Positions 2,758 to 38,628 of a stretch of 38,628 nt of DNA are shown piece by piece. A model generated the notes under the pieces. That model searched no databases. It was not told the origin of the DNA and saw only the letters and a program-made list of their open reading frames with translations. The stretch covers positions 1-38,628 of IMG/VR virus record IMGVR_UViG_3300042868_004422. The stretch is one strand, 5' to 3'. The position numbers were made by a program, and so were the translations under genes. Source of the DNA: a virus. Numbering within the stretch: the first letter of the stretch is position 1; each line of letters starts with the position of its first letter.

Positions 2758-3023
2758 AGACGCTTGACGATTTTCTCGCGATGCAGGAGCAGCTGGCGGA
2801 ACAGGATTTGCTGAAGAGCGGCGACCTCGTCAATCACCCGCCTCACTACAAGCAGGGCGGCATCGAATGTATCGACGCCATCGAATCGGCATTGACACCG
2901 GAAGAGTTTCGCGGGCATTGCAAGGCGAATGCGCTTAAGTACATCTGGCGTGAGAAGCACAAAGGCCAAGACGAGAGCCTGAGAAAGGCCATTTGGTATT
3001 TGAACCGCGCCCTTGGCGAATAA
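2754..3023 (+). CDS. DUF3310 (SaV-like) nucleotide kinase-type phage protein
   Basis: An 89-aa protein starting with GTG in a GTGA overlap with the HTH gene. The diagnostic DUF3310 pattern is present: VNHPPHYKQGGIECIDAIE (about 26-44), then FRGHCKANALKYIWREK and LRKAIWYLNRAL at the end. The family is widespread in phages and often sits with replication genes. It is frequently annotated as a nucleotide kinase, but its activity is not established. An in-frame ATG at 2781 lacks a ribosome site, so the GTG is preferred. It lies just before the primase-helicase, consistent with a replication-associated role. Confidence 0.85.
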   Translation: MKTLDDFLAMQEQLAEQDLLKSGDLVNHPPHYKQGGIECIDAIESALTPEEFRGHCKANALKYIWREKHKGQDESLRKAIWYLNRALGE

Positions 3024-3051
3024 AAAAAAGGGCCGTCCCGAAAGACGACCC
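3022..3051 (-). terminator. Minus-strand hairpin followed by eight U residues
   Basis: Read leftward, an imperfect stem (GGG plus CGTC pairing with GACG plus CCC, one mismatch, six-base loop; 3030-3051) runs straight into eight T residues (3029-3022). This is a factor-independent terminator for leftward transcription. The only local genes run rightward, so it would stop antisense transcripts reading back through the primase gene, for example from the repressor at 5898-6179. On the plus strand the U tract is missing, so the early rightward message should pass. Confidence 0.5.
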
Positions 3052-3073
3052 AGTTCGGAGGAAAGGAATTAGA

Positions 3074-5311
3074 GTGTCTTACCTGAAATTACACGGCGCG
3101 CAACTGATAGCAGCAGGGTATTCCCCACTGCCTATTAGGGCAGGGTTCAAAGCGCCGGCCATCAGCGACTGGCAGAATTGCCACGCTGACGCAGACAAGA
3201 TGGATCAGTGGTTAAGCGATCCACGCATGGCGAACTGCGGTGTCGGCATCTTGACCGAGAACACGCCAGCCATCGACATCGACTGCCTCGACAAGGACGT
3301 CAGCTACAAGCTGGTGAAGTGGGTCGAGAACAACATCGGCAAAGCACCGCTGCGGATCGGCAAGAAGCCGAAGGCGCTGATGGTGTTCCGCTGCGACGAG
3401 CCGTTCGGCAAGATTCGGTCGAACGAATATGTGGACATCCTGGGCAACAAGAACGCGGTCGAGGTGCTGGCCAAGGGGCAGCAGTTCGTCGCCTACGCCG
3501 TCCACCCTGATACGCAGCAGCCATACGCTTGGCCGAAGAAGTCGCTGATCGACGTCCCGCACGACGATCTGCCGACGCTGACCAAAGAACAGGCACAAGA
3601 GTTCGTCGCCTATTTCGAAAGCATCATCCCCGAAGACTGGGAACTGTCGCGTAAGGGAGTTAGCACATTTGCGAACTCGGACGACGACGATCTACTGACA
3701 TTGCGGCCAAAGTTGGGCAAAAGTGTGGCCGACCTTGAGGCGTGGATGGAGAGCCTCGACCCCGACTGTGGCCACGATGAGTGGGTGAAGGTCGGCATGG
3801 CGCTGCACCACGAAACAGACGGCGAACCAGAGGGTCTGCGCCTGTGGGATGACTGGTCGAGCCAGAGCGGCAAATATGTCCACGGTGAGTGCGCCAAGCG
3901 GTGGCGCTCGTTCGGTCGCAACACCACCGCCCAGCCGGTGACCGCGGCTTACATCGAAGGCAAGGCCAAGAAGGTCGTGCGTGAAGAGAAGAAGCGCGGC
4001 CTGGTTGACCAGCTGGTCAAGGACTTGGTGTTCGTTCAGGTGTCGGGCAGTGCGCGGGTTATCCGCGAAGACGACATGCAGGACGGCCTGGAGCTTTACG
4101 GCGTCGAGGATTTAACCAAGGAGTTCGCCAACCAGTCGATCCCCGTCAAGTCCGAGAACAAGAAGGGCGAAGAGGTCGTTGACATGGTCAACCCGATCAA
4201 GCTCTGGCTAACCCACCCCGAACGGCGCACAGCGCGTGGACTGGTGTTCCTGCCAGAGGGCCAGAAGATCGGCGCGTACAACCTGTGGCGCGGCTGGTCG
4301 TGTGAGCCAGAAGAGGGTGACGTGTCGATGTTCACCGACTGGATGTTTGACATCATCGCCGACCGCGACGAGACGAACTACAAGTGGATCATGGGCTGGG
4401 CTGCACAGATGGTGCAGGAGCCAATGACCAAGATCGGCGTGGCCTGTGTGCTGCGTGGCCTTAAAGGCACCGGCAAGTCGAAGCTGGGTGAACTGCTGGG
4501 CGGATTGTTCCCGCAGCACCACAAGGTCATCGCGCGCCAAGAGCAGCTGGTCGGCAACTTCAACCGCCATCTGGAAGACTGCCTGCTGCTGCAAGCGGAA
4601 GAGGCGTTCTGGGCCGGCAGCAAGTCTGCTGAAGGCGCACTGAAAGACCTCGTCACCAACCCTCGCATCATGATTGAGCGTAAGGGCGTCGATAGCTACA
4701 TGGCACCGAATTTCACCCGCATCCTGTTCACGTCGAACGAGGAGTGGGTCGTGCCAGCCACGGCAGACGAGCGCCGCTGGGCCGTGTTCGACATCTCCGC
4801 ACGGCGTAAGCAGGACTATGACTTCTACCAGGGGCTACAGAACTGGTACGACCGTGGCGGCAAGAAGCATTTGCTGCACCACCTCAAGACGTTCGATCTG
4901 GCGACGGTCAACGTCCGCACTGCCCCGCAGACGAAGGCGTTGCAGGATCAGCAGATGCGTGGTGGTGACTGCGTCCAGCGTTGGCTGTTCGACTGCCTGA
5001 TGGAAGGCGAGATCAAGGACAGCAAGAGCGGTGCCGTGGTGCAGTTCGGCGAGGTCGAGGCCAACAAGGCCACGATCTACGAGAGCTACCGCAATTCGCT
5101 GCAACGCCACTGGGAAATCAAGAGCGCCAATGCGTTCTGGACGATGGCTGCGCGCTATGACGACGTGTTCGCCAACAGCAGGGGCAAATACGCGGCGGGT
5201 GCGCGATACAAGATATGCACCGTGGCGTCACTGACCGAGGCGCGTCGTCTTTTTTCCAAGAAGCATCAATATCAGGTTGACTGGCCCGATCCTCTCGCTA
5301 TTGAGGACTGA
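3074..5311 (+). CDS. Bifunctional primase-polymerase / SF3-type helicase
   Basis: A 745-aa replication protein. The N-terminal PrimPol domain (about 1-190) has an aspartate pair in AIDIDCLD (about 68-70). A PriCT_2-like segment follows (about 220-285, WMESLDPDCGHDEWVKVGMA). The C-terminal half is a D5/SF3-type ATPase: Walker A GLKGTGKS (462-469), Walker B LLLQAEEAFW (about 504-513), sensor FTSNEEW (about 552-558) and DERRW (about 565). It should open the origin and lay primers for the family A polymerase. The GTG start at 3074 follows GGAGGAAAGGA; a longer frame reaches back to 2993 but ignores that site. The closest idea is the NrS-1/DUF5906 type of phage primase-helicase. Confidence 0.9.
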   Translation: MSYLKLHGAQLIAAGYSPLPIRAGFKAPAISDWQNCHADADKMDQWLSDPRMANCGVGILTENTPAIDIDCLDKDVSYKLVKWVENNIGKAPLRIGKKPKALMVFRCDEPFGKIRSNEYVDILGNKNAVEVLAKGQQFVAYAVHPDTQQPYAWPKKSLIDVPHDDLPTLTKEQAQEFVAYFESIIPEDWELSRKGVSTFANSDDDDLLTLRPKLGKSVADLEAWMESLDPDCGHDEWVKVGMALHHETDGEPEGLRLWDDWSSQSGKYVHGECAKRWRSFGRNTTAQPVTAAYIEGKAKKVVREEKKRGLVDQLVKDLVFVQVSGSARVIREDDMQDGLELYGVEDLTKEFANQSIPVKSENKKGEEVVDMVNPIKLWLTHPERRTARGLVFLPEGQKIGAYNLWRGWSCEPEEGDVSMFTDWMFDIIADRDETNYKWIMGWAAQMVQEPMTKIGVACVLRGLKGTGKSKLGELLGGLFPQHHKVIARQEQLVGNFNRHLEDCLLLQAEEAFWAGSKSAEGALKDLVTNPRIMIERKGVDSYMAPNFTRILFTSNEEWVVPATADERRWAVFDISARRKQDYDFYQGLQNWYDRGGKKHLLHHLKTFDLATVNVRTAPQTKALQDQQMRGGDCVQRWLFDCLMEGEIKDSKSGAVVQFGEVEANKATIYESYRNSLQRHWEIKSANAFWTMAARYDDVFANSRGKYAAGARYKICTVASLTEARRLFSKKHQYQVDWPDPLAIED

Positions 5312-5337: not shown

Positions 5338-5808
5338 GTGAAAGACGTCAATCTAACCGAAGACACGCTCAACCACATGCCGGCCATTGTCCGCATTGCT
5401 GGTGAGTACAAGATCACCATCATGGAACTGCTGGGGCCAAGCAAGCAGGAGAAGCTGGTCGCGGCGCGTACCGCCTTGTGCCGCTTGCTTCACGGCGCGG
5501 GTGTGCCAATCGCTACCGTCGCCAGGGTGGTCGGTCGTGACCGCAGTTCGGTGCGGAACCTGTTAGAGCGCAGGGTCAACCCGACGCCAGCGTTCTTTGA
5601 GAGGCGTGAAGTCGCCGATCCACCGCCGCGTGAACACACGGCACAACGCTACAAACATGCTTGCAAGCGCGGGTCGAAGGCTCTGGCCGATGCGATCTTC
5701 GCCAGCGGCAAGACACACGGCCCGATGTCCGAGAAACAACAGATCGACGCCCTGATTTGGTGCCGCGACGGACTGAAGAATCTTCATGCGACGGGGTGGA
5801 TGGTGTGA
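5338..5808 (+). CDS. DnaA domain IV-like DNA-binding protein
   Basis: A 156-aa protein with a GTG start after AAAGGA. Residues about 20-78 resemble the C-terminal, double-stranded DNA-binding domain of the bacterial initiator DnaA: YKITIMELLGPSKQEKLV, then a basic helix (AARTALCRLL) and the helix-turn-helix IATVARVVGRDRSSVRNLL. The histidine-threonine pair of the DnaA signature (DHTTV) is RSSV here, so the recognised box may differ. No AAA+ domain is present. The remainder (80-156) is not recognised and has a late helix (EKQQIDALIWCRDGLKNL). Being next to the primase-helicase, it could be the origin-recognition partner; the mirror array at 9604-10057 is one possible target. Confidence 0.7.
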   Translation: MKDVNLTEDTLNHMPAIVRIAGEYKITIMELLGPSKQEKLVAARTALCRLLHGAGVPIATVARVVGRDRSSVRNLLERRVNPTPAFFERREVADPPPREHTAQRYKHACKRGSKALADAIFASGKTHGPMSEKQQIDALIWCRDGLKNLHATGWMV

Positions 5809-6184: not shown

Positions 6185-6213
6185 TGTTTAGCGTGAGGGG
6201 GTGAGTAATGCAA
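6185..6213 (-). promoter_or_regulatory. Candidate repressor promoter giving a leaderless mRNA
   Basis: On the minus strand TTGCAT (6213-6208) is followed after exactly 17 bases by TAAACA (6190-6185). The repressor ATG begins only five bases downstream, so the predicted start site falls in or beside the start codon. This resembles lambda PRM, whose cI message is leaderless. It would explain the missing ribosome-binding site. Confidence 0.45.
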
Positions 6214-6367: not shown

Positions 6368-6442
6368 GGGCGCATGGCGCTAGGGCGCATGGCGCTAGGG
6401 CGCATGGCGCTAGGGCGCATGGCGATAGGGCGCATGGCGATA
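6368..6442. repeat. Five tandem 15-bp repeats (iteron-like)
   Basis: Unit GGGCGCATGGCGCTA occurs three times in perfect tandem (6368-6412), then twice as GGGCGCATGGCGATA (6413-6442). Frames crossing it give only pentapeptide-repeat nonsense. The 333-base gap 6214-6546 that holds it has no convincing gene; it also has an AT-rich stretch around 6245-6355 and the GC-rich repeats at 6454-6522. Tandem arrays of this kind act as initiator or regulator binding sites in other replicons; the role here is unknown. Confidence 0.7.
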
Positions 6443-6453
6443 GGGCGCGATTA

Positions 6454-7664: not shown

Positions 7665-8513
7665 TTATCCTACAACGAAACCGCTTGTATCTTTGCGGGC
7701 CTTGCCTTTCGCGTATAGCGCCACAATCGCGCCGCGCGGATCAAGGTGACGTATGTCGCTATCGTCCCCGTCAACTAGGGGAAGGCCTAAAAACGTTTCG
7801 CCATTGGCCAGCATTGTTTCAACGATTGCGCGATTGCGAAAAACAACGGCGATCCTTTCGCCATTGGCAACGGCCTTAGCGACATAGGGCGCATAGGCTG
7901 GAACGCCGCTATAGCTAAAGGTTAAATCATAGTTGGCTGGAACGTTTTTGCGGTTCGCAAGCTTTGTATAATCATAAAATTGGATATCGGGGAAAGCCGC
8001 AAAGATATTTGCATAGGCATTAAAATTTAGGCGCGGGTGAGGCACGGCGATATTCTCAAAGCGAATATCGCTAGTGCCATTTAGCCGAACAACAAGCTTG
8101 AAACCTTCCCGCTTGGCTTTGTCCGCATATGCCGCTATTTCTTTATGCAATTGCGCCATGAATTGATCGCGGTACTGATTAAAGAATAGCGTTTTACGCA
8201 AGCGCGAAAGCATAACGTTAGACATAGCGCCGCGGCCTGCCGTGAATAGGCAAGGGCCGTCGCATTTGGCGATAGCCGCCATAGCGCATAGGTTAACGCC
8301 CGATCCCATTGCTGGCATTAGGTAAAGGATCGCGGTTTTAATGCCGTATCGTTCGCCCTTGATCGTTTTCGCGTTTGTATCAAGGCCTAAGAGCTTGTCG
8401 GGCAATCTGGAGAAAAGCGATCTGTTTTTGGGATCGCTTAAAATTTGCGCTTGGATTGCCAGCGATAGGCCCGATATGTCATAGGCTAGTGTCGTTTGTG
8501 TCTGCATTAGCAT
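7665..8513 (-). CDS. GP88-family (gene product 88) protein
   Basis: A 282-aa protein matching the phage/plasmid GP88 family (named for mycobacteriophage gene 88). Family landmarks are GIKTAILYLMPAMGSGVNLC (57-76), a Cys cluster C76, C84 and C88, TAGRGAMSNVMLSRLRKT (91-108), VVRLNGTSDI (about 141-150), then FPDIQFYDYTK and LTFSYSG. The three spaced cysteines hint at a metal or Fe-S site; that is inference. Biochemical function is unknown to me. It has a good ribosome site (AAAGGAA, eight bases before the ATG). It is the largest gene of the accessory island and probably its functional centre. Confidence 0.8.
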   Translation of the reverse strand: MLMQTQTTLAYDISGLSLAIQAQILSDPKNRSLFSRLPDKLLGLDTNAKTIKGERYGIKTAILYLMPAMGSGVNLCAMAAIAKCDGPCLFTAGRGAMSNVMLSRLRKTLFFNQYRDQFMAQLHKEIAAYADKAKREGFKLVVRLNGTSDIRFENIAVPHPRLNFNAYANIFAAFPDIQFYDYTKLANRKNVPANYDLTFSYSGVPAYAPYVAKAVANGERIAVVFRNRAIVETMLANGETFLGLPLVDGDDSDIRHLDPRGAIVALYAKGKARKDTSGFVVG

Positions 8514-8531
8514 TGGTTAGGTTCCTTTCGA

Positions 8532-8762
8532 TTAAACGATACCGCGCATGGCGGCTTTGATTGACGTAACGCTATATCGCGCGCCGTCGGGCGTTTTTGT
8601 TTCGCCCATATTTGCCAGCCATTGGATGAAAAGCCGCGCGGCTAGGTCGCGCCCGAATTCGGCGGCTAGGTCGCGGGCATGTCGGTAAAGCATTTCGTCA
8701 TTGTTGATCCAGAGGCTCACATTCCAATGCGTCCAATTTTTGTGTCCGTTATATGTTGCCAT
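8532..8762 (-). CDS. DUF7249-like small phage protein
   Basis: A 76-aa protein starting MATYNGHKNWTHWNVSLWIN. The NGHKNW-HWNVSLWINND pattern is a recurrent signature of small phage and plasmid proteins (I believe DUF7249). The middle has ALA-type helices (ARDLAAEFGRDLAARLF) and the end is SVTSIKAAMRGIV. Function unknown. Its leader (CGAAAGGAAACCTAACCA before ATG) is nearly identical to that of the GP88-family gene next downstream, suggesting the cassettes share expression signals by duplication. Confidence 0.7.
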   Translation of the reverse strand: MATYNGHKNWTHWNVSLWINNDEMLYRHARDLAAEFGRDLAARLFIQWLANMGETKTPDGARYSVTSIKAAMRGIV

Positions 8763-8784
8763 TGGTTAGGTTTCCTTTCGTTTA

Positions 8785-8877
8785 TTAATGTGTCGGGCCG
8801 AATAGGGCCGCGTCTAAGGCTAGGGCCGCGAATATGACGGCCAGCAATAGGGCGTTATGGATTAGGGCTTGTTTCAT
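8785..8877 (-). CDS. 30-aa membrane peptide
   Basis: This short frame starts MKQALIHNALLLAVIFAALA and ends ALFGPTH. A single hydrophobic helix covers about residues 7-26. The start lies at the end of a 30-bp leader (8875-8904) that is repeated exactly before the 75-aa gene at 8904-9131, including the AAAGGA ribosome site ten bases from the ATG. This shared leader makes it more than a chance frame. Function unknown. Confidence 0.6.
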   Translation of the reverse strand: MKQALIHNALLLAVIFAALALDAALFGPTH

Positions 8878-8904
8878 TGGCTTGTTGTCCTTTCGTTTGT
8901 TTGT
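8875..8904 (-). repeat. 30-bp cassette leader, copy 1
   Basis: Identical over 30 bases to 9129-9158. It contains the ribosome site (CGAAAGGA on the minus strand) and start codon of the 30-aa membrane peptide, and touches the stop codon of the preceding gene. Confidence 0.9.
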
Positions 8905-9131
8905 CATGCCCAATAGCCAAGCTTGCGGGCATTAGCCTTTAGGCGGGCGACGTCGCCAGTCTTAACGCGGCGCGATGTTACCTTGCGCCCATTGTGGCCG
9001 TAGTAAGTTATGACGCTATCAAACGTCCAATGGGTAACGCGGACATGCTTGCGTGATCGCGGCATGTTGGCAGGGCGCGGCGCGGGCTTGCGCGATAGTG
9101 AAGCGATTGCTTTAGCTATTAGGTTAAGCAT
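8904..9131 (-). CDS. 75-aa hypothetical cargo protein, strongly basic
   Basis: The first gene of the leftward accessory series. A short hydrophobic/amphipathic N-terminus (MLNLIAKAIASLSRK) leads into a Pro/Arg linker and a basic domain with HVRVTHWTFDSVITYYGHNG and RRVKTGDVARLKANARKLGY. The strand-rich, Arg/Lys-rich core suggests nucleic acid binding, but no family is recognised. Its start is set by the 30-bp repeated leader (9129-9158). A candidate promoter motif lies about 55 bases upstream. Confidence 0.65.
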   Translation of the reverse strand: MLNLIAKAIASLSRKPAPRPANMPRSRKHVRVTHWTFDSVITYYGHNGRKVTSRRVKTGDVARLKANARKLGYWA

Positions 9132-9158
9132 TGGCTTGTTGTCCTTTCGTTTGTTTGT
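9129..9158 (-). repeat. 30-bp cassette leader, copy 2
   Basis: Exact copy of 8875-8904, here serving the 75-aa basic protein. Shorter related leaders precede the genes starting at 8513 and 8762. Confidence 0.9.
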
Positions 9159-9162
9159 GAGT

Positions 9163-9193
9163 CCGCCCTATCGCCCGCTTGCTATAGTGTCAA
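9163..9193 (-). promoter_or_regulatory. Candidate promoter motif for the accessory operon
   Basis: On the minus strand TTGACA (9193-9188) matches the -35 consensus, in the context GTTGACAC also seen in the early control region at 2414-2421. The -10 at 17-base spacing is poor (TAGGGC). Position just upstream of the first accessory gene supports it; the missing -10 weakens it. Confidence 0.3.
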
Positions 9194-9355
9194 CTGTTAG
9201 TTGTATACCAGGCAAATAAAATGCGCCGCCGGTTTCGCTATCTGCGATTGTGGCGATAGGGATTAGGCGATCTGCGATTAGTCCGCGGGCGCAATGCGAC
9301 GCGCCCTTTAAAACGCGCGAAGCAATCGGCGTCCATCGGCTGGCAATCGCTGGCC

Positions 9356-9376
9356 GGTGTACCAATTGGTGTACCA
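9356..9376. repeat. Direct repeat GGTGTACCA with central palindrome
   Basis: GGTGTACCA occurs at 9356-9364 and again at 9368-9376; the overlap forms the perfect palindrome ACCAATTGGT (9361-9370). The GTACCA core recurs upstream of the integrase (32923-32940 and 33056-33129). It may be an integrase or excisionase site, or an operator. Confidence 0.5.
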
Positions 9377-9393
9377 AATGCCCGCAAAGCCTA

Positions 9394-9455
9394 GGAAATC
9401 CGCCAGTCTCCGCCCCATGCCCTATGGGGCAGACGCCCAAAAACGGCGGATTTCC
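9394..9455. other. Nested inverted repeat (structured element)
   Basis: The outer arms GGAAATCCGCC (9394-9404) and GGCGGATTTCC (9445-9455) are perfect. Inside, GTCT (9406-9409) faces AGAC (9431-9434), and GCCCCAT (9412-9418) pairs with ATGGGGC (9424-9430) over a five-base loop. The element could fold as a long hairpin in RNA or extrude as a cruciform. The 967-base gap 9132-10098 that holds it has no convincing gene. Confidence 0.7.
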
Positions 9456-9603
9456 GCGGGTTTCGCGCGAACGGGGGCGGGGGGAGGGGGTCTCCGCACC
9501 CCCGCGTCCCGTGATGGGCATATAGGCCGTTCCGCGAAAATTCCCCAGATACTGTCAACCTTCAGTTGCAGGGGGAGAAGATCGCCAGGGAGGCCAGTGG
9601 AAA

Positions 9604-10057
9604 ATTACACACCCTTGGAGCCTTGTGTCTAGGGTGTGTAATAGGGTGTGTAATGAAAACCCAAGTAGTTCTGCGCCTTTCCGGCGCCATTACACACCCT
9701 TGAAATTTTGTGTCTAGGGTGTGTAATCGCGGAACGCTTAGAAAAGCCTGAAGTTTTCGGCCCGATTACACACCCTAGACATTTTTCTTCTACTTTCTTA
9801 GGAAAAATATATAAATATATAGATAAAAGGGGGAGGGGGTGTGCCGCTGCACCACCCACTGGCAGATCGACACCCGAAAATGTCTAGGGTGTGTAATGAA
9901 AGCAGAAACCCCAACATTCTCTAGGCTCTCCCGCATTACACACCCTTAGACACTTTTTCCAAGGGTGTGTAATCGCCTCGCAAACCCGCAGAAATGCTGG
10001 GGTGAAAATTACACACCCTTTTACACACCCTAGACACTTGCCAAAAGGGTGTGTAAT
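9604..10057. repeat. Mirror-symmetric array of twelve ATTACACACCCT sites
   Basis: Twelve copies of the 12-mer ATTACACACCCT (eleven exact, one with one change) lie at 9604, 9631, 9643, 9689, 9716, 9765, 9886, 9935, 9962, 10008, 10020 and 10046. Orientations are F R R F R F / R F R F F R. Gaps are 15, 0, 34, 15, 37, [109], 37, 15, 34, 0 and 14 bases, so positions and orientations mirror about base 9831. Four F-R pairs can form hairpins with 14-15-base loops. Several copies extend to TGTCTAGGGTGTGTAAT. Candidate roles: replication origin, partition site or multi-site operator. Confidence 0.95.
9777..9829. other. AT-rich tract in the array's central spacer
   Basis: The left half of the central spacer is almost pure A/T around 9781-9826 (for example AAAATATATAAATATATAG), next to a G-rich right half beginning GGGGGAGGGGG. 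In a GC-rich genome such a tract flanked by repeated binding sites resembles a DNA unwinding element of a replication origin. Confidence 0.55.
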
Positions 10058-10066
10058 GACTATGGA
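10038..10066 (+). promoter_or_regulatory. Candidate late-operon promoter overlapping array site 12
   Basis: TTGCCA (10038-10043) and TATGGA (10061-10066) are separated by exactly 17 bases. The spacer contains array site 12 (10046-10057). The first late gene starts at 10099. Anything binding the array would sit on this promoter. Confidence 0.5.
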
Positions 10067-10098
10067 CTAGACACGTTAGACAGAAAGGGCCGACACAG

Positions 10099-10374
10099 AT
10101 GAGCGACGAACGGACGTGCAAGAGGTGCGATGAGCAAAAGCCGCTCGGCTTCTTCAAGGAGTACGCCCCTGGTAAGCACCGCTATGTGTGCAAGGCGTGT
10201 CAGGAAACAGACCAACGCAAGTACCAGAAGCGGCACGACGAGAAGAAGCTGCTGAAGAAAATTATCGGCCAAGGGACACCCGACACCAACGCCCGCATCA
10301 CCGCCTTAGAAGAACAAGTGCAATCACTTCTTGCTTTCGCCAAACTTCATGGCTACAACACCACCGAAACTTGA
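10099..10374 (+). CDS. Small zinc-finger protein before terminase
   Basis: A 91-aa protein with a four-cysteine finger: C7-X2-C10 and C31-X2-C34 (TCKRCDEQKPLGFF...YVCKACQ). It is followed by a very basic stretch (RKYQKRHDEKKLLKKI) and a short C-terminal coiled coil (ITALEEQVQSLLAFAK, about 67-82). Similar treble-clef fingers occur in HNH endonucleases, but the HNH histidines are not evident, so I do not call it a nuclease. It starts 41 bases after the candidate promoter, with AAAGGG as ribosome site. First in the packaging operon, it may help DNA recognition or late control. Confidence 0.65.
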   Translation: MSDERTCKRCDEQKPLGFFKEYAPGKHRYVCKACQETDQRKYQKRHDEKKLLKKIIGQGTPDTNARITALEEQVQSLLAFAKLHGYNTTET

Positions 10375-10388
10375 CAGGACAACGCGCA

Positions 10389-10973
10389 GTGAGCGATCCG
10401 TTTGACAGTATTGTGCTACCAGACCTGGCGATGGACTCCCCACCGCCGGCTCCCGCTGCCAAACGGAAACCCGTCGCGAAGCCGAAAGCCAAACCTGTAC
10501 AGATTTCTGTACAGGAGGATGAAGAACTTCCCGAAGTGGAGATTCTGCCCCCGCTCCCGAAACGCATCCACGAAGCCCGCGACATCACCGACGACGCCGG
10601 TCGCACCTATAAGCAGCCGAAGGTCGATCTCTCTGAGGTCGAGGCGATGGCTAGTGTGGGGATGACCACCAAGCAGATCGCCGATGCGCTGAAGTTACCC
10701 CCGTCCGTTTTTGGCAAGCTCATAAAGAACGATCCGACTGTGCAGGAGGCCATCGACCAAGGGACTTCCCGTGGCATCAAGATGGTGACCGACAGCCTTT
10801 TCGGCATGGCGCTCAAGGGGAATGTCGCCGCGGCGATCTTCTTCCTGAAGAACAAGGGCGGCTGGGCTGATAAGCAGGAATTGGATCAGCGTTTACAGGT
10901 GGAAACGAAAATGTCGTTTGACGACGCCGTCGAAGCCCTTAAAGCAGCGGGCATAGACCCGTCGAAAATATAG
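10389..10973 (+). CDS. Terminase small subunit-like DNA-binding protein
   Basis: A 194-aa protein with a GTG start preceded by AGGAC. The N-terminal third is a Pro/Lys-rich disordered linker (PPPAPAAKRKPVAKPKAKP). Then comes a helix-turn-helix segment (VEAMASVGMTTKQIADAL followed by LPPSVFGKLIKNDP, about 90-125) and a helical C-terminal half containing MALKGNVAAAIFFLKNKGGW. This last pattern (small terminase-like NVAAAIFFLKN-GW) is typical of phage small terminases. It would recognise viral DNA and load the large subunit encoded two genes downstream. Call rests on motif and position. Confidence 0.75.
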   Translation: MSDPFDSIVLPDLAMDSPPPAPAAKRKPVAKPKAKPVQISVQEDEELPEVEILPPLPKRIHEARDITDDAGRTYKQPKVDLSEVEAMASVGMTTKQIADALKLPPSVFGKLIKNDPTVQEAIDQGTSRGIKMVTDSLFGMALKGNVAAAIFFLKNKGGWADKQELDQRLQVETKMSFDDAVEALKAAGIDPSKI

Positions 10974-10983
10974 AAAGAAGCAC

Positions 10984-11262
10984 ATGGCCGACAACGACGA
11001 CGACAAAGTAGTTCCCTTCACCCGCCCAGTCGCCCCCAAAGGCGACGACATACAGGCGCTGAACATGAACGGCGATGCGCTCATCGCGCTACTGGCGCGG
11101 TACGACACCATCGCCATTGTCGCCTGGAGCGACGAGATGGAGGTTCTTGACGTCATCTCGCAGGAACGCGACAGGGCCGTGCTGTACGAACTTATTCAGC
11201 AGGCGGCGTCGAATATCGCGTTTGAAGCACTGGACAACGCCAACGCCAGCACGTTTCACTGA
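10984..11262 (+). CDS. 92-aa hypothetical protein between terminase genes
   Basis: The N-terminus is very acidic (MADNDDDKVVPFTRP). The body is a compact alpha/beta segment (DALIALLARYDTIAIVAWSD, EVLDVISQERDRAVLYELIQ) ending in a helix. Its stop overlaps the terminase large subunit start as TGATG, so expression is coupled. No family recognised. The position suggests a packaging accessory, although small non-virion proteins also occupy this slot in related phages. Confidence 0.7.
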   Translation: MADNDDDKVVPFTRPVAPKGDDIQALNMNGDALIALLARYDTIAIVAWSDEMEVLDVISQERDRAVLYELIQQAASNIAFEALDNANASTFH

Positions 11263-12782
11263 TGGCCGACACGCACGACGAGAACTTCAAACCGGACTTG
11301 ACGGCAATCGCCAACGAGGACGCTGTCGCGCAGGCGCAGATCGCGGCTGCTGCGGACGAGGAGAAGGCCGTCGCGCTGGCTGAAGCCATTCGCGTAATCC
11401 GCGATCACAAAAAGAAGAACAAGCTGGAGTTCTTCACGGCGTACAAATGGCAGATGCAGTTCTACGAGGCCGGCACCCGCTCCAAACAGCGGGCGCTGAT
11501 GGCCGCGAACCGCGTCGGCAAATCATACAGCGCCGCATACGAGATGGCCTGCCACCTTACTGGCAAATATCCCGACTGGTGGCCAGGCATAAAGTTTTTC
11601 AGGCCGATCAACGCATGGGCGATGGGGGTCACGGGCGAACAGATGCGTGACGTGATCCAGCGTGAGTTGTTCGGATCGCTGAACGGGCGCATCTTCGACG
11701 GCGGGTTCATTTTGCCCAACGAAGTACGCAGCATCGTTCCAGCCGCAGGGACGCCACGTCTGGCGAAGGACGTCTACATCTGGCACCAGAGCGGCGGGTA
11801 CAGCTGTCTGAGCCATAAATCGTACTCACAGGGCCAAGCGCCGCTGATGGGATCGTCCATCGACATCGCGTGGATTGACGAAGAGCCGACCGACCCTGAA
11901 ATCTACCCACAGGTGCTGACCCGTACCGCCACCGGCAACGACGGCAAGGGCGGATATGTGCTGCTGACGTTCACGCCGGAAAACGGCATGACCGAACTCG
12001 TTGGCCAGTTCATGGAGAGCCTCAAAGAAGGCCAATATCTCCAGAACGTGACGTGGGAAGAGGCAGAACACCTCGACGACGACACAAAACGCCAACTTTT
12101 AGCTGCCATCCCCGAATACCAACGCGAAATGCGCTCGAAAGGCATCCCCGTGCTGGGCGAGGGCATGGTCTTTCCGGTCGCGGAAGAGGCGATCAAGGTC
12201 GATCCGTTCGAAATACCGCAGCACTTCCGCATTTGTGCCGCCATCGACTTCGGTATCAGTCACCCCACCGCAGTCGCGTGGATGGCATACGACGCAGATC
12301 GCGACATCATCTACCTGTACGACAGCTACAAGCGCGCTGGAGAGATACCAGCCGTCCACAGCGCCATGATCAGGGCCAAAGGGCCGGCGATCCCTCTGCT
12401 GTACCCACACGACGGCGACAACCGCGAGAAAGGCAGTGGCAACACGATGGCCGACCTCTATCGCGAAGCTGGGTTGAACGTCGTCGGGCGTTTCACCAAT
12501 CCTGACGGGTCGAACTTCGTCGAGCCAGGGATCATGGAGATTCTTGAGCGGATGCGGACTGGCCGGTTCAAGGTTTTCGCCGATCAGAAGGATTTCTTCG
12601 ACGAATTCCGCCGTTATCACCGCAAGCAGGGCAAGATCGTTAAGGAACATGACGATTTGATCGACGCGGTGCGCTATGCAGCCTTGTCAGTGCAGCGTTT
12701 TGGGGTTAGTAAGGCGGAACTTAAGATGCCAGAGGTGTATGGACGCCACGGCGTGTCGTTAACCGAGGATTGGGACATTTAA
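11262..12782 (+). CDS. Terminase large subunit
   Basis: A 506-aa packaging motor: ATPase plus headful or site-specific nuclease. Walker A is AANRVGKS (81-88), the degenerate P-loop common in phage terminases. Walker B with catalytic carboxylate is IDIAWIDEE (200-208), and the coupling motif is LLTFTPENG (about 234-242). The RNase H-fold nuclease has CAAIDFGISHPTAV (D329) and the C-terminal HDDLIDAVRYA (463-473). The gene joins the portal gene by TAATG. It packages DNA through the portal into preformed proheads. Confidence 0.95.
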   Translation: MADTHDENFKPDLTAIANEDAVAQAQIAAAADEEKAVALAEAIRVIRDHKKKNKLEFFTAYKWQMQFYEAGTRSKQRALMAANRVGKSYSAAYEMACHLTGKYPDWWPGIKFFRPINAWAMGVTGEQMRDVIQRELFGSLNGRIFDGGFILPNEVRSIVPAAGTPRLAKDVYIWHQSGGYSCLSHKSYSQGQAPLMGSSIDIAWIDEEPTDPEIYPQVLTRTATGNDGKGGYVLLTFTPENGMTELVGQFMESLKEGQYLQNVTWEEAEHLDDDTKRQLLAAIPEYQREMRSKGIPVLGEGMVFPVAEEAIKVDPFEIPQHFRICAAIDFGISHPTAVAWMAYDADRDIIYLYDSYKRAGEIPAVHSAMIRAKGPAIPLLYPHDGDNREKGSGNTMADLYREAGLNVVGRFTNPDGSNFVEPGIMEILERMRTGRFKVFADQKDFFDEFRRYHRKQGKIVKEHDDLIDAVRYAALSVQRFGVSKAELKMPEVYGRHGVSLTEDWDI

Positions 12783-26470: not shown

Positions 26471-26712
26471 GTTACACCCCTGCACCAACTCTCGCCAAAA
26501 CGGTCGAAGACTTGCGCCGCTGGGCGACACTTGAACTTCAACGTGTCTCCGACAGCTTCAGGGCCGCGCAAACACCAACGATCCCCGTTCTCTTTGAAGC
26601 TCCGGCAAAACCTGTCACCGGCCAGTTGGCCCTCGCAGACGGGACTTCATGGAATCCAGGCTCCGGTCGGGGGCTTTATTACTTCGATGGCTCTTGGACA
26701 TTCATTGCGTAG
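26467..26712 (+). CDS. 81-aa small virion protein
   Basis: GTG start in GTGA overlap with the nozzle-like gene. A helical N-terminus (LAKTVEDLRRWATLELQRVS) is followed by a short beta domain (GQLALADGTSWNPGSGRGLY then YFDGSWTFIA). Proteins of this shape often follow nozzle-type genes in podoviruses. Probably structural; function unknown. Confidence 0.65.
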   Translation: MSYTPAPTLAKTVEDLRRWATLELQRVSDSFRAAQTPTIPVLFEAPAKPVTGQLALADGTSWNPGSGRGLYYFDGSWTFIA

Positions 26713-37991: not shown

Positions 37992-38522
37992 TTAGTCGAG
38001 GAAAGAGTCGTTATCGTCTTCTTCGATTTCACCAAACACGTCAGCAGTGACCTTCTTGCCGCCGAACGCATCGCCGTCCTTGACGAACTGGATGGCGTCG
38101 AGGGTCGCGTTCACACGCTTGCCCCACTGGTTGTCCTGCGCCCACAGCGAGATCGCTGCGTTGACGTAGCAACCGGCGTAAGGCTTGCCGTCTTCTTCGG
38201 CCAGAGGGTTCTTCTTCTGGTCAACGATCACAGGGCGAACCTTGGTCGATGCAGAGACGAACATGGAGCCGTCGTAGCCGTCGTAATCCTTCTCTTCACC
38301 GTCGCCGATGCAGACCTTGAGCGACTTCGGCACGTCCTTGCCCCACTTCTCGGTGGCCACGGCCTTGACGGCTTCCTTGACCTTGGCGATCAGGTCGGCC
38401 TGGTCGCCCTTGTCGAGCAGGAAGTTCGCGTTGAAGCGTGGTTCCTGACCCTGCGCGAACGCCTTGGGGGTCCAGATTTGCGGGAACGAGAGGCGGACGT
38501 TTTTCAATACAATTGCAGTCAT
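37992..38522 (-). CDS. DUF2815 ssDNA-binding protein
   Basis: A 176-aa OB-fold-type single-stranded DNA-binding protein of the DUF2815 family (T7 gp2.5-like). It opens with TAIVLKNVRLSFPQIWTPKA; the middle has CIGDGEEKDYDGYDGSMFVS and VRPVIVDQKKNPL, then the conserved YAGCYVNAAISLWAQDNQWG; the acidic tail EIEEDDNDSFLD is typical for partner contact. ATG 38522 follows AAGGAAA; a longer upstream frame is unlikely. Position beside the nuclease and polymerase supports a role in replication and strand exchange. Confidence 0.9.
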   Translation of the reverse strand: MTAIVLKNVRLSFPQIWTPKAFAQGQEPRFNANFLLDKGDQADLIAKVKEAVKAVATEKWGKDVPKSLKVCIGDGEEKDYDGYDGSMFVSASTKVRPVIVDQKKNPLAEEDGKPYAGCYVNAAISLWAQDNQWGKRVNATLDAIQFVKDGDAFGGKKVTADVFGEIEEDDNDSFLD

Positions 38523-38628
38523 GACTTTTTCCTTAGTTAAATAGATCAACGGCGGCTGCACCAAACGCAGGCCGAGGATCGTGTTCTGGGGCCAGCGATG
38601 GCTTGCCCCGTGGCTTGATGACGAAATC
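38502..38628. repeat. Right copy of 127-bp terminal direct repeat
   Basis: Identical to bases 1-127. It links the end of the contig to its beginning; the operon genes on both sides continue across the joint without disruption. Confidence 0.95.
38533..38628 (-). CDS. Duplicated 3' end of the DUF2800 gene
   Basis: The last codons and stop of the DUF2800 gene (complete at 32-1198) occur again here because of the terminal overlap. It is truncated by the contig end and is not a second gene. Confidence 0.9.
   Translation of the reverse strand, partial: DFVIKPRGKPSLAPEHDPRPAFGAAAVDLFN

Follow-up and report, generated by a model that had tools for sequence, protein, structure and literature searches.

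The alpha protein of P4 reads the repeats of its origin with a winged helix (PMC4234260), and the Rep protein of SaPIs, which seems to act as two hexamers, recognizes iterons through the domain at its C-terminus (PMC7581432). For phage replicases that combine PrimPol, SF3, and winged-helix domains, stem-loop starts have been proposed, after no origin-like iterons had been found (PMC4234260). Here, we describe an array of short sites in a viral genome, which was analyzed as one stretch of 38,628 nucleotides (the window; IMG/VR record IMGVR_UViG_3300042868_004422), and compare it to these systems.

Genome context and geometry of the array

The ends of the window are identical over 127 bases (1-127 and 38502-38628), which indicates a closed, complete genome of about 38.5 kb. 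The record is classed as linear, yet the assembly is closed circular or terminally redundant. The array lies in a non-coding region and is flanked by leftward small genes on one side and by a rightward late block on the other. This block starts with an ORF of 91 aa, followed by the genes for the small terminase (terS, 10389-10973, + strand, PHROG), which adjoins the array, the large terminase (TerL, 11262-12782, + strand, PHROG), and the portal. The gene of a primase-helicase (2993-5311, + strand; PHROG DNA primase) ends 4.3 kb before the first site of the array at 9604. The families Prim-Pol, PriCT_2, DUF5906, and VapE-like were assigned to its product using Pfam and PHROGs, and its SF3 class is inferred from these families. 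Directly behind it lies a gene for a protein resembling domain IV of DnaA (5338-5808, + strand), for which the match to Bac_DnaA_C is weak and below the cut-off. The replication module also holds a family A polymerase, an SNF2 helicase, a VRR nuclease, an Enc34-type ssDNA-binding protein, and DUF2800, and a tyrosine integrase gene is present in the genome. Additionally, a 15-bp tandem repeat, GGGCGCATGGCGCTA, occupies 6368-6448 with 5.4 copies at 98%. A search of named phages with 8500-11300 returned a sole match of 60 nt outside the array (8694-8753, in a DUF7249 gene), with 83% identity to relatives of Escherichia phage phi92, which are otherwise unrelated. When host genomes were scanned with the primase-helicase, the only match was a weak fragment from Bartonella.

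The original prediction had placed twelve copies of a 12-mer at 9604-10057. Their place and number were correct; eleven of them are exact copies of ATTACACACCCT (word A), while site 11 (10020-10031, + strand) reads TTTACACACCCT and carries one mismatch. The left arm (sites 1-6, 9604-9776) comprises sites starting at 9604+, 9631-, 9643-, 9689+, 9716-, and 9765+, and the right arm (sites 7-12, 9886-10057) those at 9886-, 9935+, 9962-, 10008+, 10020+, and 10046-. The orientations (+ - - + - + / - + - + + -) and the edge-to-edge gaps (15, 0, 34, 15, 37, [109], 37, 15, 34, 0, 14) are exactly as predicted, as is the reflection about base 9831: the midpoints of all six mirror pairs fall at 9830.5-9831.0, and all 12 sites are mirrored in both orientation and spacing, which was equalled in none of 1500 layouts in which sites were placed at random and their strands shuffled. 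Allowing up to two mismatches, the genome contains 13 matches to the 12-mer compared to 1.5 expected (100 shuffles, maximum 6), the thirteenth being a weak stray at 6198 outside the array. When all 9-letter words were searched, 9604-10057 was the best array of the genome and the single one of its kind, and block-shuffled genome copies reached at most two mirrored sites.

The likeness between the arms extends to their spacers. In inverted orientation, 21 of 34 positions are identical in the 34-nt pair (as good in 0 of 2000 shuffles) and 18 of 37 in the 37-nt pair (7 of 2000), which reproduces the values given in the original prediction. The two halves of the central gap (15/55) and the outer flanks (14/60), in contrast, are not alike across the mirror. 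The arms therefore look like an old inverted duplication in which the geometry has been kept, as had been proposed; besides the spacer homology, relatives with the same geometry and a different word (see below) are in line with such a history. An AGACA extension 3' of the 12-mer, present at half of the sites, is mirrored as well: it occurs at the pairs 2/11, 5/8, and 6/7 and is missing at 1/12, 3/10, and 4/9. Between the arms, just left of the mirror centre and followed by a G-run, lies an AT-rich core (9777-9828, 83% A+T; 85% at 9781-9820), a putative unwinding element.

Arrays in close and distant phages

About 20 close relatives were obtained in a TerL search. Three of them (L012-L014, TerL 99%) also have word A, of which eight copies can still be recognised; the outer sites are kept and the inner ones decayed. 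In seven others (L015, L016, L017, L019, L020, L022, and L023; TerL 94-95%), we found a second word, GCACCCACCCTT (word B), or close variants of it, and an array of word B is also present in contig L140, which was found via the primase-helicase. The word-B arrays occupy the same place as the window array, around a similar AT-rich core. The six sites of L140 follow the order + - + / - + - with start-to-start steps of 36, 50, 119, 49, and 36, compared to + - + / - + - and steps of 27, 49, 121, 49, and 27 for sites 4-9 of the window, and in the mirror test the word-B array was equalled by 8 of 3000 random placements. A third word, CTCCAAGACACCC (word C), occurs in L027 (TerL 82%), where six of eight exact sites are mirrored (57 of 2000 random placements as good); scanning viral contigs with the motif-C pattern returned L027 only. 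CACCC is the 3' part common to words A, B, and C. Judged from these comparisons, the array geometry and the AT core are kept while the word changes across the whole array. Relatives lacking the geometry had been named as evidence against the original prediction; the motif-B relatives keep it, while in L012-L014, the closest relatives, this holds for the outer sites and the inner ones have decayed. The contigs L016, L020, and L023 start within the G-run immediately to the left of the array, at a position that marks either a break in the assembly or a physical end of the genome, and L015 begins with a 15-bp tandem array similar to the GGGCGCATGGCGCTA array of the window.

We also surveyed phages that share only the primase-helicase with the window, with identities of roughly 25-43% in the part that matches. 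Rhizobium phage RHph_X2_30, whose only common feature with the window is this protein (30% identity), has an array of the unrelated word CTTGGACC, in which all eight exact sites are mirrored; allowing one mismatch to CTTGGACCT, the number is 10 of 10 (0 of 1500 random). In this phage, AT-rich stretches lie inside the arms, and terS is 19 kb away from the array. Arrays of yet other words are present in RcRudolph (13 sites), RHph_I72, and phiVC8, with mirroring that is partial or not significant; the symmetry was not significant in RHph_I72, phiVC8, and P4. A stretch of about 550 bp in RcRudolph, which has a PrimPol helicase, holds fifteen copies of AGGTCGGAC with at most one mismatch, partly mirrored (L175:17746-18292). 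No mirrored array above background was detected in the PrimPol-SF3 phages PaMx74, PaMx28, M6, Ab18, K300, ZP6, and QDWS359. Likewise, TerL relatives outside the clade (PfAn1, L053, L054, L056, L066, L068, L069, and L083) showed no array above shuffles; about 20 kb near TerL were covered in all of these except PfAn1, with replication genes identified in part. In BPP-1, two mirrored pairs of GCCTCGTTT surround an AT-rich centre near terS (26607-26711 of the record, L177:6608-6712). These pairs, too few for significance, could represent a minimal mirrored array or possibly the stem-loop origin proposed for the near twin BIP-1.

Candidate readers and alternative functions

In order to identify the protein that reads the word, we compared the candidates in the four genomes with both an array and the candidate proteins, the window and G001 for word A and G002 and L140 for word B. 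Identity in the C-terminal part of the primase-helicase (4940-5308, + strand; aa 650-772), a predicted winged helix, is 100% for the word-A pair, 72-74% across the two words, and 95% for the word-B pair, compared to 100, 95, and 99% for the helicase core. The corresponding values (A-A / A-B / B-B) are 87 / 70 / 63% for the helix-turn-helix of the DnaA-like protein, 86 / 49-57 / 77% for an XRE protein, 98 / 70-72 / 91% for TerS, and 99 / 83 / 99% for a Cro-like protein. Among these candidates, the predicted winged helix appears from the alignments to be the one that tracks the word best in the four genomes, two for each word. For TerS and the Cro-like protein, both within-word comparisons likewise rank above A-B, and these two are compatible with the co-variation alone; the survey makes TerS less likely.

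Further observations point to the same domain as the proposed reader of the 12-mer. Between words A and B, dN is 0.16-0.17 in the C-terminus and 0.03 in the helicase core, which corresponds to a difference of about 5 times. In L132, a contig that ends outside its array, a motif-B-type C-terminal domain (L132:5758-6126) is joined to a window-type helicase, visible at the DNA level, and this primase-helicase appears to be a recombinant in which the C-terminal domain alone was swapped. AlphaFold predicted a winged helix for the C-terminus (pLDDT 84), and the recognition helix and wing of this prediction contain many of the A-B substitutions. Its fold matches are generic winged helices and weak (Z about 5); 1KA8, the origin-binding domain of P4, is among them and ranks 42nd (E 0.45). 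A sequence profile of the C-terminus had no match in the PDB, and nothing was found in a sequence comparison with P4 alpha.

The original prediction had instead proposed the DnaA-like and XRE proteins as binders, for both of which co-variation with the word is absent. An origin to which the DnaA-like protein would deliver the helicase seems improbable. Its gene neighbours that of the primase-helicase, the protein has the weak match to Bac_DnaA_C, and a similar one is present in RHph_I72. However, although both G002 and L140 carry motif B, their DnaA-like helix-turn-helices are less identical to each other than either is to that of the window, and their recognition helices differ (VRNLLER and VGSLLAH). 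Moreover, this protein is unmatched in the array-bearing RHph_X2_30, RcRudolph, and phiVC8. The likeness of TTACACACC to a DnaA box was also discarded, as it is absent from motifs B and C; the genome contains two DnaA boxes, which is chance level, without a cluster. The XRE protein was rejected as a reader because it varies inside each word class. This also weighs against an operator or looping array for the divergent gene blocks, read by an XRE or a Cro/YdaS-like regulator, a function that we regard as quite unlikely. It would suit the position of the array and the conservation pattern of the Cro-like protein. However, no sigma-70-like promoter, and no terminator, was detected in 9100-10150, in a test that was specific to this promoter type and not to phage or other types, and the array of RHph_X2_30 goes with the replication helicase.

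A packaging site (pac/cos) bound by the small terminase is similarly doubtful. The array is directly upstream of terS in the clade of the window and in RHph_I72, and TerS identity follows the word. By eye, however, the TerS helix-turn-helix of A hardly differs from that of B, and the array does not travel with the terminase: none above shuffles was detected in PfAn1 or, within about 20 kb near TerL, in the other TerL relatives outside the clade, and in RHph_X2_30 it is separated from terS by 19 kb. Repeat arrays are typical of parS/parC sites, and the array could in principle serve a plasmid prophage as a centromere-like site for partition. We judge this very unlikely for a phage that carries a tyrosine integrase and in which Pfam and PHROG searches of part of the ORFs detected no ParA, ParB, or TubZ-like family. 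The packaging, partition, and operator readings thus all fit less well than a replication origin, which is the best supported of the functions offered in the original prediction.

A proposed bidirectional origin compared with known systems

We consider the array probably to be the replication origin of this phage, of the P4-alpha/SaPI-Rep kind and read by the C-terminus of the primase-helicase; binding, a double hexamer, melting, and origin function are what we infer. The primase-helicase would bind the 12-mers via its winged helix, and each mirrored arm would nucleate one helicase hexamer, so that two hexamers in opposite orientations would flank the AT-rich core. The core would then melt, and the enzyme would prime bidirectional replication. 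Two mirrored arms around such a core are suited to two opposed hexamers. In favour of an origin, locus and AT core are kept though the word changes, and phages with nothing but the helicase in common with the window also carry arrays. Against it stand the several PrimPol-SF3 phages without a mirrored array above background, the distance of 4.3 kb from the primase-helicase gene, the weak fold matches of the C-terminus, and the cumulative GC skew, which the original prediction had suggested as a check: it shows no origin signature, as a turn with the expected sign is absent at 9831.

More tentatively, the mirror geometry might be under selection because it sets two hexamers head to head, with array word and winged helix switching as a specificity pair in PrimPol-SF3 phages. 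If true, such pairs would in effect be phage incompatibility groups. The locus may provide a natural experiment on how specificity shifts jointly in a dozen sites and in a domain that binds DNA, as well as a small model for double-hexamer loading and, for many phages yet to be studied, origin/initiator pairs that can be tested.

What is new is the mirror layout, plus the switching of the word across the whole array with the geometry kept. We found no description of a fully mirrored 12-site layout with coherent word switching in the literature searched, which left most subscription journals outside. The P4 origin resembles the window in that the element's own primase-helicase acts on short repeats in both orientations (ori/crr type I repeats) through a winged-helix reader (PMC4234260); the annotated repeats are visible in NC_001609. 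In contrast to the window array, these repeats lack mirror symmetry about one centre and P4 has two separate cis sites, and the primase domain of alpha is of the DnaG type (PMC4234260), whereas that of the window is archaeo-eukaryotic. In the accessible part of the report on SaPI Rep and SCCmec Cch2 (PMC7581432), iterons are read by the C-terminus and two hexamers are proposed, as we propose here, and neither a mirrored 12-site layout nor word switching is described. The SaPI origin is located directly downstream of rep, while the window array is remote from its primase-helicase gene and next to terS. The replicases of pRN1 and of the Bordetella phages BIP-1 and BPP-1 share PrimPol, PriCT_2, SF3, and winged-helix domains with that of the window, and their symmetric origins drift in sequence while keeping their structure, as does the window array (PMC4234260). 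For these, the origin proposed was one stem-loop located 3' of the gene, iterons having been rejected (PMC4234260), whereas the window has an array of 454 bp. Overall, arrays with different words and one geometry point to mirrored iteron arms for PrimPol-SF3-winged-helix replicases, and name the domain that is likely to read them.
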